DNA from: Longispora albida DSM 44784
Lineage (GTDB): Bacteria; Actinomycetota; Actinomycetes; Mycobacteriales; Micromonosporaceae
Direction: 5' to 3'
Assembly: GCF_000379825.1 (NCBI RefSeq)
Contig: NZ_KB903815.1
Coordinates: forward strand, 90,810 to 154,809
Length of the DNA: 64,000 nt
Within the stretch, counting starts at the first letter, position 1, and every line of letters begins with the position of its first letter. Both the position numbers and the translations under genes were made by a program. Below the pieces are notes generated by a model. It searched no databases. It saw nothing but the letters and a program-made list of their open reading frames with translations, and had not been told where the DNA came from. This document shows, one piece after another, positions 13,774 to 60,277 of this stretch.

Positions 13774-13922
13774 CCCGCTGAGGACGAATCTGGACTGCGC
13801 GTAAGGACTTCCCACGTACAACACCGGTACGAGGGAAGTCCTTACGCTTGCCAGATCCGCCCTCAGCGGGCCACTTCGCCTTAGATCAAGATCAAAAGCT
13901 TGAAGATCTAGATCAAGGGCCA
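13774..13922 (+). repeat. structured intergenic element, copy 1 (triple-stem, AACACCG loop)
   Basis: Outer stem 13774-13783 with 13861-13870 (CCCGCTGAGG/CCTCAGCGGG). Middle stem 13788-13793 with 13851-13856 (ATCTGG/CCAGAT). Inner hairpin with 21-nt arms 13799-13819 and 13827-13847, one 2x2 internal loop, and loop AACACCG (13820-13826). A 3' tail follows with GCCACTTCGC, TTAGATCAAGATCAA and GATCAAGGGC. A second copy is at 33551-33698. It could act as the crgA terminator, but conservation of loop and flanks goes beyond a terminator. It may be an RNA element or a miniature repeat; orientation is taken from crgA. Confidence 0.8.
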
Positions 13923-14044: not shown

Positions 14045-14079
14045 CCAGCGGTTATCCACAGGCTGTGGATAACCGCTGG
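14045..14079. promoter_or_regulatory. palindrome of two inverted DnaA boxes
   Basis: CCAGCGGTTATCCACA (14045-14060), a GGC spacer, then its exact reverse complement (14064-14079). Each arm contains the consensus DnaA box TTATCCACA. In sequence terms this is a perfect DnaA-box pair; it could bind DnaA or act as a hairpin. It lies 40 bp before the PH-domain gene. Only two boxes are seen, too few for oriC. Confidence 0.6.
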
Positions 14080-14589: not shown

Positions 14590-14600
14590 CCAGTGGTGTT

Positions 14601-14638
14601 GGGGCCCCTCATGTCGCTATGACGACATGAGGGGCCCC
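14601..14638. repeat. GTGGGACCCCT-type palindrome, copy 1
   Basis: Perfect 16-bp stem, GGGGCCCCTCATGTCG (14601-14616) with its complement (14623-14638), around CTATGA. It sits between the convergent PH-domain and rhomboid genes, so it can terminate both. It shares the CTCATG...GCTAT...CGACATGAGGGG core with copies at 40102-40143 and 60204-60245. Confidence 0.75.
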
Positions 14639-14646
14639 ACATGCCG

Positions 14647-33550: not shown

Positions 33551-33698
33551 CCCGCTGAGCGCGACGCTGGACTGCGCATTGAGCCCGTCTAGATACAACA
33601 CCGGTATCTAGACGGGCTCAATGCTTGCCAGCCCCGCGCTCAGCGGGCCACTTCGCGTTAGATCAAGATCAAGAGATGAAAGTGCAGATCAAGGGCTG
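33551..33698 (+). repeat. structured intergenic element, copy 2 (triple-stem, AACACCG loop)
   Basis: Outer stem 33551-33562 with 33636-33647 (CCCGCTGAGCGC/GCGCTCAGCGGG). Middle stem around 33566-33570 (GCTGG) with CCAGC at 33628-33632. Inner hairpin with fully paired 21-nt arms 33576-33596 and 33604-33624 and loop AACACCG (33597-33603). The 3' tail has GCCACTTCGC, TTAGATCAAGATCAA and GATCAAGGGC; its last bases overlap the stop of the minus-strand gene at 33689. Frame, loop and tail match copy 1 at 13774-13922, but the 21-nt arms are unrelated in sequence and keep pairing. Confidence 0.8.
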
Positions 33699-37691: not shown

Positions 37692-38321
37692 ATGAACCCC
37701 GGCAAGACCCCCGGCAAGCAGTCCTGGCAGGCCCTCCCGGGCGGTGCCAAGGCCGCGATCATCGTGGCGGCCGCCCTGGCCGTCATCCTGTTCCTCTGCT
37801 GCGGCCTGGCGGCCTGCGGTGCGATCCTCGTCGACCCGCAGCCGAAGACCGACAACAAGGGCAACCACCAGGAGGCTCCGCAGCCTGCCCAGGTCACCAC
37901 CCCTCCTCCGGTACCGGCGACCACACAGCCCGCGCCGCCGCCCCCGACCACCGCCGCACCCGTCCCCACCACGGCACCGCCCGCCCCGCCGGTACCGACG
38001 CCGGCCGCCCCGAAGACGACAGCACCCGCCCCGGTCTACTACGCGAACTGTGACGCCGTCCGCGCCGCCGGCAAGGCCCCGCTGTACCGCAACTCGCCCG
38101 GCTACCGAGCAGCCCTCGACGCCGACAACGACGGCATCGCCTGCGAGACCGACACCAACACGGGCGGCGGCGGTACCGGAGGTGGCGGAGGCGGCAGCGC
38201 GCCCGTCTACTACGCCAACTGTGACGCCGTCCGCGCGGCGGGCAAAGCCCCGCTGTACCGGGGTCAGCCCGGCTACCGTGACGCCCTCGACCGGGACAAG
38301 GACGGCATCGCTTGCGAGTAG
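37692..38321 (+). CDS. membrane-anchored protein with two Excalibur calcium-binding domains
   Basis: 209 residues from ATG 37692, with CTGGAGCG upstream. One span (about 19-44) is followed by a Pro/Thr/Ala-rich stalk (about 50-115) and two nearly identical Excalibur motifs separated by a Gly-rich linker: YYANCDAVRAAGKAPLYRNS ... DADNDGIACE and YYANCDAVRAAGKAPLYRGQ ... DRDKDGIACE. The Asp-x-Asp-x-Asp-Gly loops bind Ca2+, and the two Cys of each motif likely form a disulfide. It probably projects from the cell surface. Function beyond Ca2+ binding is unknown. The two motifs look like a recent duplication. Confidence 0.9.
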   Translation: MNPGKTPGKQSWQALPGGAKAAIIVAAALAVILFLCCGLAACGAILVDPQPKTDNKGNHQEAPQPAQVTTPPPVPATTQPAPPPPTTAAPVPTTAPPAPPVPTPAAPKTTAPAPVYYANCDAVRAAGKAPLYRNSPGYRAALDADNDGIACETDTNTGGGGTGGGGGGSAPVYYANCDAVRAAGKAPLYRGQPGYRDALDRDKDGIACE

Positions 38322-38390: not shown

Positions 38391-38440
38391 TTGACATGGC
38401 GCCGCATCATGACGTCATAATGATGTCGTCATGATGCGGC
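38391..38440 (+). promoter_or_regulatory. sigma-A-like promoter embedded in a 40-bp palindrome
   Basis: TTGACA (38391-38396) and CATAAT (38416-38421) form a near-consensus promoter with a long 19-bp spacer. The -10 lies in the centre of an exact inverted repeat: GCCGCATCATGACG (38401-38414) and CGTCATGATGCGGC (38427-38440). A repressor bound there would block the polymerase. It is upstream of the 39-aa gene at 38486. Confidence 0.6.
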
Positions 38441-38485
38441 AGCGCCACCCGTGGCAGCGCCCAGCAGATCAAGCGAGGAGTCGTC

Positions 38486-38605
38486 ATGCGCAAGCTGTTC
38501 TTCGGCCGTCCCCGGTCCCGCACCACCCGCCCGGTGACCAGCCGCCCCGACCGCGTGGTCGCCGTCTACGGCACGGTCGTCCGTGTGCAGTCCACGGCCT
38601 ACTAG
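38486..38605 (+). CDS. 39-aa basic peptide
   Basis: ATG 38486 to TAG 38605, with a GAGGAG ribosome site six bases upstream and the promoter/palindrome of 38391-38440 about 50 bp ahead. It begins MRKLFFGRPRSRTTRPVTSR and ends VVAVYGTVVRVQSTAY: an Arg-rich first half, then a beta-prone Val-rich end. There is no signal peptide or span, and no family recognised. The strong expression signals and G/C third positions argue for a translated gene. It converges on the symporter gene five bases later. Confidence 0.65.
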   Translation: MRKLFFGRPRSRTTRPVTSRPDRVVAVYGTVVRVQSTAY

Positions 38606-38609
38606 GCCC

Positions 38610-40097
38610 TCAGACGAGCGACTCGGGGGCGTGCAGCCGGAGCAGCATGCGGCCCACAGCCGCTGGCACCCGCCGCCGGGTCGCAAGCGACACGAGCACC
38701 ATTACTGCAAATGCCATCGGTACCGTCCACGCCGCAGGCTGGGTAACCAGGACCGCTAGCCAGCCGTGGCCCGGATCGCCGAACACCGTGAAGACCACGG
38801 CACCCGCAGCGGCCCCGCCCCCGGCGATCATGCCGGCCGCAGCGCCTGCGTCGGTGAGGCCGCGCCACCAGATCCCGAGCAGCAGCAGCGGGCAGAAGGT
38901 CGCCGCAGCCACCGCGAAGGCCAGGCCGACCACTCTGGACACGTCCACCCCGTCGACGCTGAGCGCGAGCACGGCGGGCACCAGGCCAGCGATCACCGCC
39001 GACCAGCGGAAGTCCCGCACAGAGCCCCGGCCGAGCACGTCGGTCGACAGCACGCCAGCCACCGAGGTCAGGAGACCCGATGACGTGGAGAGGAAGGCAG
39101 CGAAGGCCCCTGCGGCCACCAGCGCACCGAGGGCCTGCCCGAGCGGCCCGTCCCCGAGCACCACCCCCGGCAGCACCAGCACCACGGCATCCGGTGTGGC
39201 CAGCCCCGGCGTGTAGATCCTGCCGAGCAGGCCATAGATGGTGGGGAAGAGATAGAACACCCCCACCAACCCCAAGACCCCCAATGTCGTACGCCGGGCG
39301 GCGCGCCCATCCGGATTCGTGTAGAACCGGACGAGCACGTGTGGCAGGCCCATCGTGCCGAGGAAAGTCGCGATGAGCAGCGAGTACGTGCCGAAGAGCC
39401 CCTGAGCTGGCGTGCCGCCCCCGAGCAGCCACTCCGTGCCGACCGGTGACTCCGGAGTCACCAGCGCGCCGGAGCCGCTCGACCGCCAGCGCAGCAGCAG
39501 GAACACGACGGGTACGGCGAGCGCCGTGAGCTTCAGCCAGTACTGGAAGGCCTGCACGAACGTGATCGACCGCATCCCGCCCAGCGCCACCGACCCGGTG
39601 ACCACGGCGGCGACCAGCACGACGCCGGCCCAGTAGGGCGCGCCGGTGACCGTCCGCAGGGTCAGGCCGGCTCCCTGGAGCTGCGGCAGCAGGTACAGCC
39701 AGCCGATGAACACGACGAAGGCCGTCACGAGCCGCCGCAGTTTCCGCGACCCGAGCCGCAGCTCGCAGAAGTCCGGCAACGTGAAGGCACCCGACCGGCG
39801 CAACGGCCCGGCCACGAACAACAGCAACGCCAGGTACCCGGCCGCGAACCCGATCGGGTACCAGAGCACGTCCAGCCCGTAGCTGAGCACCAGCCCGGCG
39901 ATGCCCAGGAACGATGCGGCCGACAGGTACTCGCCACCGATCGCGGCGGCGTTCCACCGCGGGCTGACCGAGCGCGAGGCGACGAGCAGGTCACTCGTCG
40001 TCCGGGCCACCCGCAGCCCGTAGAAGCCGATCACCAGGGTCACGAGCGTGACGAGCACGATCCCGGCCAGCGCCCAGCTCACCCGAGCACCCCCCAT
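38610..40097 (-). CDS. sodium:solute symporter (SSS family, ActP-like)
   Basis: 495 residues from ATG 40097. About 13 spans. SSS marks: SPRWNAAAIGGEYLSAASFL, GFYGLRVARTTSDLLVASRS, FLGTMGLPHVLVRFYTNPDG and AAFLSTSSGLLTSVAGVLST. These resemble the acetate/monocarboxylate branch (ActP/MctC). It imports a small carboxylate with Na+ or H+. It is the last gene of a minus-strand set starting with the LytS/LytTR pair, separated from the DUF485-like gene by a palindrome (40102-40143). Confidence 0.9.
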   Translation of the reverse strand: MGGARVSWALAGIVLVTLVTLVIGFYGLRVARTTSDLLVASRSVSPRWNAAAIGGEYLSAASFLGIAGLVLSYGLDVLWYPIGFAAGYLALLLFVAGPLRRSGAFTLPDFCELRLGSRKLRRLVTAFVVFIGWLYLLPQLQGAGLTLRTVTGAPYWAGVVLVAAVVTGSVALGGMRSITFVQAFQYWLKLTALAVPVVFLLLRWRSSGSGALVTPESPVGTEWLLGGGTPAQGLFGTYSLLIATFLGTMGLPHVLVRFYTNPDGRAARRTTLGVLGLVGVFYLFPTIYGLLGRIYTPGLATPDAVVLVLPGVVLGDGPLGQALGALVAAGAFAAFLSTSSGLLTSVAGVLSTDVLGRGSVRDFRWSAVIAGLVPAVLALSVDGVDVSRVVGLAFAVAAATFCPLLLLGIWWRGLTDAGAAAGMIAGGGAAAGAVVFTVFGDPGHGWLAVLVTQPAAWTVPMAFAVMVLVSLATRRRVPAAVGRMLLRLHAPESLV

Positions 40098-40101
40098 GAT
40101 C

Positions 40102-40143
40102 GTGGGACCCCTGAAGTCGCTATAGCGACTTCAGGGGTCCCAC
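40102..40143. repeat. GTGGGACCCCT-type palindrome, copy 2
   Basis: 19-bp perfect stem: GTGGGACCCCTGAAGTCGC (40102-40120) with its complement (40125-40143), loop TATA. It lies between the stop of the 124-aa gene and the start of the symporter gene, both leftward, so it may reduce read-through inside the operon. It is related to the copies at 14601 and 60204. Confidence 0.75.
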
Positions 40144-40152
40144 ACTCTGCCG

Positions 40153-40527
40153 TCACTTCTCCACCAGTTCTGTGAAGTCGCGTTCGTTGCGCTCGCTCAT
40201 CCGCACGTACACCCAGCCGGCGGCGACCAGGAACGGATAGGGCAGCAGGCCGAGAAGCAGCCAGGGCAGGGATATCTCCCAGATCTTGACCCTGGCCAGC
40301 GCCGGAGCGGCGCTGAACAGCAGCGGCAGCGTGCCGAGCCCCAGCCCGACGATCAGCGCGAGCCGCAGGGCGAGGGCGAGCTGCGCCCGGACCAGGCCAC
40401 GGATCAGCGCGTCGCCGATCTCGGTCTGCTCGGCCAGCTCCCGCCGGGCCTGGCTGACCTTGCGCGCCCGGGCCACCTCCCCGAGCACCACGCGCGTCCG
40501 CTTCGGGCGGTTGCTCAGCGGTGCCAT
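40153..40527 (-). CDS. DUF485-like small membrane protein
   Basis: 124 residues from ATG 40527, overlapping the response-regulator stop by 13 bp. The N-terminus is basic (NRPKRTRVVLGEVARARKVS), then two spans (about 46-68 and 83-106) and an acidic tail (ERNERDFTELVEK). The topology and place before a symporter match DUF485 partners of ActP-type transporters, though the sequence is divergent. It is probably a small symporter subunit. Confidence 0.75.
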   Translation of the reverse strand: MAPLSNRPKRTRVVLGEVARARKVSQARRELAEQTEIGDALIRGLVRAQLALALRLALIVGLGLGTLPLLFSAAPALARVKIWEISLPWLLLGLLPYPFLVAAGWVYVRMSERNERDFTELVEK

Positions 40528-41249
40528 TCTTCCCTCGCCGACCGCAGCAGCAGATCCTTGAGTTCCCGGGTGTGCCTGCGGGCCACCGGCAGCGTCCGGC
40601 CGCCGACGACCACGACATAGCCCGAGTTGGTCATCCGCAGCTCACTGATCTGGTCGAGCCGGACCAGGAAAGACCGGTGGATCCTGGCGAACCCGGCCTC
40701 GGCCCACCGCTCGGCCAGCACCGCCAGCGGGATCCGCACGAGGTGCGAGCCCTCCTCCGTGTGCAGCCGGGCATAGTCGCCCTGCGCCTCGACCCAGTGC
40801 ACAGTGGACCTGGGCAGCAGCTTGATCGTGCCGGCCAGCTCGACGGGGATGACGGCCGGCTCGGGTACCGGTGCCTTCGTGCCGCGTGCCGACAGGATCC
40901 GCCGCAGCGACTCGGCCAGCCGCTCCGGCTCGACCGGCTTGCGGATGTAGTCGAGAACGCCCAGGTCGAAGGCGTCGGCTGCCCGGTCGTCGTACGCGGT
41001 CACGAACACCACGGCCGGCGGCGCCGCGAACCGGTGCAGTACCCGGGCCAGCTCCATCCCGTCCAGCCCCGGCATCCGGATGTCCAGGAAGGCCGCGTCC
41101 ACGTCCGCCGAGCGCAGTACCCGCAGCGCCTCGGTCGCGTCGCTGGCCGTCGCCACGCTGCCGACCCGGGGATCGGCGCGCAGCAGGTACGCCAGCTCGT
41201 CCAGAGCCGGCAGCTCGTCGTCGACGGCGAGAATCCGCAGCGGCCTCAT
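40515..41249 (-). CDS. LytTR-family response regulator
   Basis: 244 residues from ATG 41249. A receiver domain (about 4-120) has the acidic pocket DDE, the phospho-acceptor in DAAFLDIRMPGLDG, and VTAYDD and RKPVE. A LytTR DNA-binding domain (about 140-240) has VHWVEAQGDYARLHTEEGSH, FARIHRSFLVRLDQI and LPVARRHTRELKDLL. It pairs with the sensor kinase immediately upstream, and by genomic association likely controls the symporter genes. Its start follows two mini-ORFs created by a 17-bp tandem repeat. Confidence 0.93.
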   Translation of the reverse strand: MRPLRILAVDDELPALDELAYLLRADPRVGSVATASDATEALRVLRSADVDAAFLDIRMPGLDGMELARVLHRFAAPPAVVFVTAYDDRAADAFDLGVLDYIRKPVEPERLAESLRRILSARGTKAPVPEPAVIPVELAGTIKLLPRSTVHWVEAQGDYARLHTEEGSHLVRIPLAVLAERWAEAGFARIHRSFLVRLDQISELRMTNSGYVVVVGGRTLPVARRHTRELKDLLLRSAREEWHR

Positions 41250-41296
41250 GACCGCGCCGCTCTCATGACCGCGCCGCTCTCATGACCGCACCGCCG
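41246..41296 (-). repeat. 17-bp tandem repeat with two six-codon mini-ORFs at the kinase/regulator junction
   Basis: TCATGACCGCGCCGCTC occurs at 41246-41262 and 41263-41279, and a diverged third unit at 41280-41296 includes the kinase stop. On the minus strand each unit carries an ATGA overlap. From the kinase stop, ATG at 41283 opens MRAARS then TGA, ATG at 41266 opens MRAARS then TGA, and ATG at 41249 opens the response regulator. Every step is a stop-start overlap, so coupling could be relayed. Confidence 0.85.
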
Positions 41297-42428
41297 GGTG
41301 GAACTTGGGAATCCGGAGCATGATCCGCGTACCCGCGCCGACGCCAGTCTCGACCACCAAGCCGTACTCCTCCCCGAACACCGCCCGCAAACGTTCGTCC
41401 ACATTCGACAATCCGACGTGCTGCCCGTCGCCCGACTCTTCCTCGGTCAGCAGCTCCGGATCCATGCCCACCCCGTCGTCGTCCACGCTCAGGTGACACT
41501 CGGCTCCGGCATCCCGCGCCACGATCGTCACCGTTCCGACGCCGGGCTTGCGGGACAGCCCGTGCCGGACGGCGTTCTCCACGAGCGGCTGCAAGCACAG
41601 GAACGGCAGCGACACCGGCAGTACCTCCGGCGCGATCTGCAGCCGCACCTGCAACCGCTCACCGAACCGCGCCCTCTCGATCGTCAGATATCGATCAATG
41701 GATCGCAACTCCTCCGCCAGCGTCGTGTACTCACCATGCGACCGCAGGCTGTACCGCGTGAACTCCGCGAACTCCAGGATCAGCTCCCTGGCCCGCTGCG
41801 GGTCCGTCCGCACGAACGAGGCGATGGCCGACAGCGCGTTGTAGATGAAGTGCGGGCTGATCTGGGCCCGGAGCGCGCGCAGCTCGGCGCGCGCCAGCCT
41901 GTCCCGCGACGAGTCCAGCTCGGCGAGCGCCAGCTGCGTCGCCGCCCACCGCCCCGTCTCGATCGCCGCCTGTACCAGGCCAGGGGCCACCGGCTCGTCG
42001 GCCAGCGCGACCAGCGTCCCGACCCGCCCGGCGTCCGTCTCCAGCGGGACGAGCACCGCGCCACGGATCAGGCAGTCGAGCCGGTCGCACGGCAGGTCCC
42101 CGGCGGCCAGCACGGCCTTCGTCGCCCGGAGTACCTGCTCGGCGTGGTGCTCACCCGTGCCGTCCCACGCGAGTACCTGCTCGGTGTCCAGGAGCGCCAG
42201 GCCGCTCGCGCCGATCAGCCGCCTCAGGTGCCGGACGGACTTCGCCGCCGCAGCCTCGGTGAGCCCGGCCCGCAGCGGCTCGGCGGCCAGGCCAGCCGTC
42301 CGCAGTACCTCGTAGGTCGCCCGCTGGTGCTGGGTCGCTATGCCGCGGCGCTGGCGCAGTCTCAGCAGCGCGACCAGCCCGGCCGCGAAGGCTGCGGCCA
42401 GGGCCGCCACCGCCCAGACAGCGTTCAT
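41280..42428 (-). CDS. LytS-type sensor histidine kinase
   Basis: 382 residues from ATG 42428 (MNAVWAVAALAAAFAAGLVA); TTG 42437 is an alternative closer to the GGAGG at its upstream side. One N-terminal span, a GAF-like sensor region (about 80-190: CDRLDCLIRGAVLVPLETDA), then the His_kinase family block LRALRAQISPHFIYNALSAI (phospho-acceptor His) and an ATPase domain with PLVENAVRHGLSRKPG (N box) and DDDGVGMD (G1). It signals to the LytTR regulator downstream. With one span only, the ligand is probably sensed in the membrane or cytosol. Confidence 0.92.
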   Translation of the reverse strand: MNAVWAVAALAAAFAAGLVALLRLRQRRGIATQHQRATYEVLRTAGLAAEPLRAGLTEAAAAKSVRHLRRLIGASGLALLDTEQVLAWDGTGEHHAEQVLRATKAVLAAGDLPCDRLDCLIRGAVLVPLETDAGRVGTLVALADEPVAPGLVQAAIETGRWAATQLALAELDSSRDRLARAELRALRAQISPHFIYNALSAIASFVRTDPQRARELILEFAEFTRYSLRSHGEYTTLAEELRSIDRYLTIERARFGERLQVRLQIAPEVLPVSLPFLCLQPLVENAVRHGLSRKPGVGTVTIVARDAGAECHLSVDDDGVGMDPELLTEEESGDGQHVGLSNVDERLRAVFGEEYGLVVETGVGAGTRIMLRIPKFHPAVRS

Positions 42429-42714
42429 CGCTGCCAATATCCTCCGTCACACCAGGTAAAAAAAGCCTTGCGCGATGCCGGTGTCCCATGCAGACTTGCC
42501 TGCGACGCGCTCACGGCGAGCGCGAGTCACGCTCCGGTGTGAGCGGACGAGTCCCGGGAAGGGGGCGGAACCAATGTCAACGACTGTCATGCGGTTTGCG
42601 CTGTCCAGCCAGACCGTCCCCAGCCTCACCGTCTGAGCGCACCTACTTTTCTCTAGTACTGCCAAGGCAGTACTGCGCCCCGGTGAGGCACTCCCAAGGA
42701 GAACCTCACACATC
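42429..42714. other. 286-bp intergenic region upstream of the RIO kinase gene
   Basis: Divergent promoter region between the sensor kinase and the RIO-type kinase. It contains the exact 20-bp palindrome AGTACTGCCAAGGCAGTACT (42655-42674) 40 bp before the RIO start, a possible operator, and CCAAGGAGAACC as ribosome site near 42697. No further gene is supported. Confidence 0.6.
42655..42674. promoter_or_regulatory. 20-bp perfect palindrome upstream of the RIO kinase gene
   Basis: AGTACTGCC-AA-GGCAGTACT is a perfect dyad with a 2-bp centre, the size of a dimeric repressor site. It is preceded by the pyrimidine-rich TACTTTTCTCT. No regulator gene is adjacent. Confidence 0.5.
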
Positions 42715-59787: not shown

Positions 59788-60201
59788 GTGCTGGACCTTG
59801 ATCTCTTCCCGGGTGAATACGCCATCTGCCGCCTGCCCGCCGGTTCCGGTGTGCCGCAGCCCCTCGTCGACGCTGCCGCCTCCGGCAAGCCGGGCCAGGC
59901 GGTGTCGGTGACGTGGACGCCGTACGAGACGAGTGTCATGTGCCCGGCCGAGCTGGCCCCGGCAGAGGCGACCGTCGAGCCCGGCTGGCGCTGCTTCCGG
60001 GTGGTCGGCCCGGTGAACCTGACGCTGACCGGCATCGTGGCAGCCTTCTCCGTCCCGCTGGCCGAGGCCCGGGTCAACATCTTCTGCTTCTCGACCTACG
60101 ACACCGACTACCTCCTGGTGAACTCGGTGCGCCTGGGCGAGGCCATCGCCGCCCTCTCGGAGGCCGGCCACCGCCTGTCGGGCGACCTGCCGTCGGAGTG
60201 A
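59788..60201 (+). CDS. ACT domain protein
   Basis: 137 residues from GTG 59788 (MLDLDLFPGEYAICRLPAGS). Two ACT-like halves: TVEPGWRCFRVVGPVNLTLT and GIVAAFSVPLAEARVNIFCF ... STYDTDYLLVNSVRLGEAI. Stand-alone ACT pairs of this type (CASTOR-like) bind amino acids. It precedes the prephenate dehydratase gene, whose own C-terminal ACT domain binds phenylalanine, so a link to amino-acid control is possible but unproven. Confidence 0.9.
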   Translation: MLDLDLFPGEYAICRLPAGSGVPQPLVDAAASGKPGQAVSVTWTPYETSVMCPAELAPAEATVEPGWRCFRVVGPVNLTLTGIVAAFSVPLAEARVNIFCFSTYDTDYLLVNSVRLGEAIAALSEAGHRLSGDLPSE

Positions 60202-60203
60202 CC

Positions 60204-60245
60204 GTGGGACCCCTCATGCTGCTATGGCGACATGAGGGGTCCCAC
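60204..60245. repeat. GTGGGACCCCT-type palindrome, copy 3
   Basis: GTGGGACCCCTCATG (60204-60218) pairs with CATGAGGGGTCCCAC (60231-60245); the centre CTGCTATGGCGA keeps the GCTAT core. It starts two bases after the ACT gene stop and ends 33 bp before the pheA start. Confidence 0.75.
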
Positions 60246-60277
60246 GATCTCGGGTGGGCAGGGCGCAGAATGGGGCC

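Follow-up and report, generated by a model that had tools for sequence, protein, structure and literature searches.

A long hairpin and a candidate small gene in a convergent intergenic region of Longispora albida

In Streptomyces, terminators mapped by Term-seq have few Us, form the hairpins of greatest length and stability and lie at median distances of 66-76 nt beyond the CDS (PMC12207403). For mycobacteria, PMC8355165 cites hairpins that lack a U trail. Here, we followed up a 40-bp palindrome and an adjacent 39-codon frame in a window of 64,000 nt (69% GC) from the 6.8-Mb, high-GC genome of the actinobacterium Longispora albida. We consider it narrowly probable that the palindrome is a terminator hairpin shared by two genes, beside a small gene that is specific to the lineage and has a promoter possibly overlapping the hairpin. 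The confidences attached to this and to the competing readings overlap: two separate questions are involved, namely the role of the palindrome and the gene status of the frame.

Setting and structure of the palindrome

Both elements lie inside a 288-nt gap with convergent genes on either side. Upstream, on the plus strand (37692..38321), a gene encodes a protein of 209 aa that carries two Excalibur calcium-binding domains (two stretches matching Pfam PF05901, E 6e-33). Downstream, on the minus strand (38610..40097), lies an ActP/MctC-like sodium:solute symporter gene (Pfam PF00474, E 3.3e-44; NCBIfam relatives below cut-off), whose stop is located 4 nt past that of the 39-codon frame. A preliminary description of this DNA had overlooked the convergent pair. 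The elements it listed (TTGACA, CATAAT, GAGGAG and a frame of 39 codons) were all found in place. The closest named relatives of the symporter belong to Micromonosporaceae, e.g. Virgisporangium, Hamadaea and Micromonospora. On its 5' side, the same strand encodes a protein of 124 aa, a LytTR response regulator and a histidine kinase, which together with the symporter form a set (38610-42437) widely kept in relatives. The Excalibur-domain gene (37692-38321) adjoins nucleotide-sugar genes and is missing beside the symporter in every relative examined.

The palindrome occupies 38401..38440. It is built of 14 perfect outer pairs (arms 38401-38414 and 38427-38440), one T/T mismatch (38415/38426), three further pairs and a 4-nt centre or loop with an A/G mismatch (38419/38422). 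The ‘perfect 40-bp palindrome’ announced in the preliminary title thus contains two mismatched positions in its inner 12 bp and is symmetric in 36/40 bases, while the perfect 14-bp inverted repeat around the -10 was confirmed, as were the inner partial dyads: TGACGTCA and TCATAATGA are palindromic in themselves. An outer extension with TGGCG/CGCCA arms and a bulge (38397..38447; inverted repeat) is partly present in the fold.

Pairing continues to the 4-nt loop, as an RNA stem requires, and the 40-mer folds at -29.1 kcal/mol on the plus strand and -27.2 kcal/mol on the minus strand, well below shuffles in both cases (z -4.4 and -4.0). The 288-nt gap contains no other strong hairpin (best 50-nt fold -32.7 vs -21.4 for the next), and its 17 pairs with 1 mismatch compare with at most 15 pairs in ten random sequences of 64 kb. 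The hairpin lies 80 nt past the Excalibur-gene stop on the plus strand and 170 nt past the symporter stop on the minus strand. No T-run flanks the stem on either strand (AGCGCCAC and GCCATGTC follow), so that it lacks the U-tract of a canonical intrinsic terminator, and a scan for such terminators returned none. Matches to animal microRNA models in Rfam were far below gathering scores, of a kind that any long hairpin triggers, and a REP/RAYT element was rejected, the palindrome being single-copy and the genome containing no Y1/RAYT transposase.

Long hairpins are common in this genome. We surveyed 20 stretches of 20 kb (~400 kb) for hairpins of at least 12 pairs and at most 1 mismatch, with genes called by a home-made codon-score caller, which makes the counts per intergenic class approximate: 18/30 convergent, 31/117 tandem and 0/51 divergent intergenic regions carried one. 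By their share of length, divergent gaps should have held ~1/5 of the hairpins (P 1.8e-6 for the observed 0). Every intergenic hairpin of the class adjoins a gene 3' end, at a median distance of 29 nt, and few of the class lie inside genes. Slightly looser hairpins number 63 in the ~400 kb, and 10 with 14 or more pairs occur in the window, where random sequence would give ~0.4. The prior chance of a hairpin in a convergent gap here is about 60%, and in this genome the class means a 3' end. Given the 18/30 convergent as against 0/51 divergent regions, a hairpin at the locus is expected as a U-poor two-way terminator rather than as an operator of the GntR/TetR type. In keeping with such a terminator, it is stable beyond shuffles, lies 3' of stop codons and belongs to a class absent from the 51 divergent regions. 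Its stem GC falls in about the lowest tenth of the class, and most members lie closer to a 3' end (median 29 nt vs 80 nt here; 24% are at 80 nt or more).

Some other hairpins in the genome fall into groups. One family runs from TGGACTGC through a stem of ~21 positions, the loop ACAACACCG and the second arm to TTGCCAG; it gave 40 pattern matches in the genome (reversed control, 0), two of them in the window (13799-13847 and 33576-33624). Among 30 distinct 64-nt copies tabulated, most stem positions show 2-5 pair types with nearly all cells paired, and one internal position is mismatched in most copies. Stem variation is compensated, whereas ends and loop are fixed; the constancy of the ends is in part a product of the search pattern. 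In L. albida, all 6 copies viewed with their context are at gene 3' ends. Copies in the genus-mate share these ends and mostly have a different loop. This family is more unusual than the palindrome and peptide described here. A second group (14600-14639, 40102-40143 and 60200-60249), with arms like GGGACCCCT...GTCGCTAT.GCGAC...AGGGGTCCCA, likewise lies at gene 3' ends. In addition, a perfect 35-nt hairpin, CCAGCGGTTATCCACAGGCTGTGGATAACCGCTGG (14045-14079), consists of two inverted copies of TTATCCACA, the DnaA-box consensus; 0.03 such 9-mers are expected in the window.

The 39-codon frame and its promoter-like site

The frame MRKLFFGRPRSRTTRPVTSRPDRVVAVYGTVVRVQSTAY (38486..38605, plus strand) runs from ATG at 38486 to TAG at 38603-38605 and is preceded, 5 nt ahead of the ATG, by the Shine-Dalgarno-like GAGGAG (38475..38480, plus strand). 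Its GC content by codon position is 0.64/0.59/0.95, and it uses codons as the genome does, bearing out what had been said of it: the log-odds per codon of 0.20, against 0.28 (sd 0.14) for real genes, puts it at the 28th percentile of the genome's genes. Windows in wrong frames average -0.38, and 0.8% of them reach this score; it was matched in 0/20,000 base shuffles, and a simulation of 2 Mb of intergenic sequence yielded no ORF of 35 codons or more that equalled it. The frame is the top scorer of six over almost the whole ORF, but not ahead of it. The statistical evidence is good that this would be a gene or a very young remnant.

Upstream, a -35-like TTGACA (38391..38396) and a -10-like CATAAT (38416..38421), both on the plus strand, are separated by 19 nt and match the consensus in 11/12 positions. 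The latter hexamer is central to the palindrome, whose dyad (centre 38420.5) overlaps it. When the upstream region was shuffled 5000 times, such a match arose in 0.02% of trials (p 0.0002), with spacers of 15-19 nt allowed, a range picked after the site was seen. A standard sigma-70 scan with a spacer window of 16-18 nt reported no promoter at the site. Mapped transcription starts in S. avermitilis feature a -35 BTGACN, a -10 TANNNT, from which CATAAT differs in the first base, and spacer lengths that peak at 12 and 19 nt (PMC8780764). As 19 nt is one of the two peaks in that species, the spacing is not disqualifying. Only a handful of sites with at least 10/12 matches occur in ~400 kb, none within genes; one other such site also has a 19-nt spacer and is directed at a gene start. 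A small gene with its own promoter-like site is thus supported statistically, the promoter itself being predicted.

We found no homologue of the peptide in 301 genomes of the family, 40 relatives, 396 genomes of the phylum, or phages or plasmids, and no matching family in Pfam or NCBIfam. The best matches per genome (E 0.001 and 0.0022; frames of ~100-150 aa) are attributable to chance with hundreds of genomes searched. Symporter neighborhoods in 80 named relatives contain neither the peptide nor the Excalibur-domain gene. In the one genus-mate species compared, the symporter is 85% identical, the DNA past its stop is unrelated and there is no comparable intergenic region. The frame is hence not conserved, a finding the preliminary description would have taken as refuting its proposal, and one of little power with a single genus-mate: as the entire intergenic region is missing from the only genus-mate compared, a young gene is argued against only weakly by its absence elsewhere.

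The same absences, across the genomes searched, beside the symporter and of any comparable region in the genus-mate, would fit a frame that is not a gene but the remnant of an older one, or a chance frame in a shared 3' region where the terminator hairpin alone is functional. We judge this unlikely, albeit appreciably possible. The codon bias, the ATG, the ribosome site and the promoter match, each rare by chance, fall into line here, and one would not expect a remnant to have retained start signals. The frame is probably a genuine, lineage-specific small gene for a basic peptide of 39 residues.

Readings of the palindrome

If the palindrome is a shared terminator, it would act mainly at the RNA level, as a long hairpin free of a U-tract that halts transcription from both sides. 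The 39-codon frame would be read from TTGACA-N19-CATAAT, its -10 lying in the hairpin centre by coincidence. With an mRNA start near 38428, within the right arm, the mRNA for the peptide would not itself form the hairpin, and read-through from the Excalibur-domain gene would be halted ahead of the peptide frame. Termination, promoter activity and translation are all three what we infer. Against a terminator plus small gene count the long distance from a 3' end, the low stem GC and the absence of relatives of the peptide; the overlap of a rare promoter match with the palindrome centre would also have to be a coincidence. Because the promoter match sits inside the hairpin, an operator or a combined terminator-promoter retains some probability.

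An operator had been the original proposal, in the form of dense regulation by a GntR/TetR-type regulator. A dimeric or doubly dimeric repressor would bind the palindrome over the -10 and silence the peptide gene in the absence of a signal. The palindrome does have at its centre the -10 of a promoter matching in 11/12 positions, directly ahead of a frame with codon bias and a good ribosome site; small dyads are nested within it, its stem has less GC than most of the hairpin class and its distance from a 3' end is long. Regulators of this type, however, usually also control themselves, and no second site was found in the genome (at most 3 mismatches in the 28 arm bases, a threshold that looser sites could escape) or in 200 genomes of the family (at most 2 mismatches in 20). 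With one genomic copy, the palindrome does not point to a regulator in the way once envisaged. LytTR regulators use direct repeats. The regulator genes nearby are the LytTR pair, and a LytTR target was rejected, the direct-repeat layout being absent; a MerR layout, invited by the 19-nt spacer, was rejected as well, as the dyad is centred on the -10 and not in the spacer. Moreover, divergent intergenic regions carry long palindromes in none of 51 cases. The single copy, the convergent setting and the confinement of the class to gene 3' ends tell against the proposed dense regulation, and we regard an operator as unlikely. Operator and terminator are compatible, for the same DNA can be a promoter and the read-through RNA a terminator.

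In a combined version, one 40-bp palindrome would serve as RNA terminator and DNA promoter core alike: transcripts arriving from both sides would end at the hairpin, whereas a new mRNA, initiated at the central -10 and thus without the left arm, would escape it and yield the orphan basic peptide, plus an antisense RNA to the symporter 3' end. We assign this a low probability. A young mobile or phage-borne cassette that delivered peptide and palindrome together, consistent with the missing gap in the genus-mate, is highly improbable, since neither phages, viral contigs nor plasmids gave a match (beyond 32 bases inside a plasmid's aldehyde dehydrogenase gene) and neither a transposase nor a tRNA adjoins the two elements.

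Returning to a terminator hairpin beside a small gene, most of the locus is most likely ordinary, comprising a stop signal of a kind common in this genome and an unconserved small gene. If this is right, a striking intergenic palindrome in high-GC actinobacteria would more likely be a U-poor terminator than an operator, which calls for caution. Should the small gene be expressed, it would represent an orphan of recent origin between convergent genes, with a modest bearing on how small genes arise.

Comparison with known systems

The arms of the palindrome are longer and more perfect than those of usual TetR/GntR operators. Like such operators, it places a dyad over the (predicted) -10 upstream of a gene; unlike them, it has no second site, and no TetR/GntR regulator was seen adjacent to it.

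The frame resembles lineage-specific small proteins of actinobacteria, for example those of mycobacteria (PMC4633059), in being short, using genome-like codons, having its own ribosome site and being missed by family models. It differs from the mycobacterial proteins in that its product is a predicted one, with no relative among the genomes searched.

As a long, very stable hairpin with no T-run, 3' of a stop and between convergent genes, the palindrome resembles the U-poor intrinsic terminators of high-GC actinobacteria seen in the Streptomyces Term-seq data. It stands apart from most hairpins of its class in this genome in its lower stem GC, its greater distance from the stop and the promoter-like -10 at its centre.
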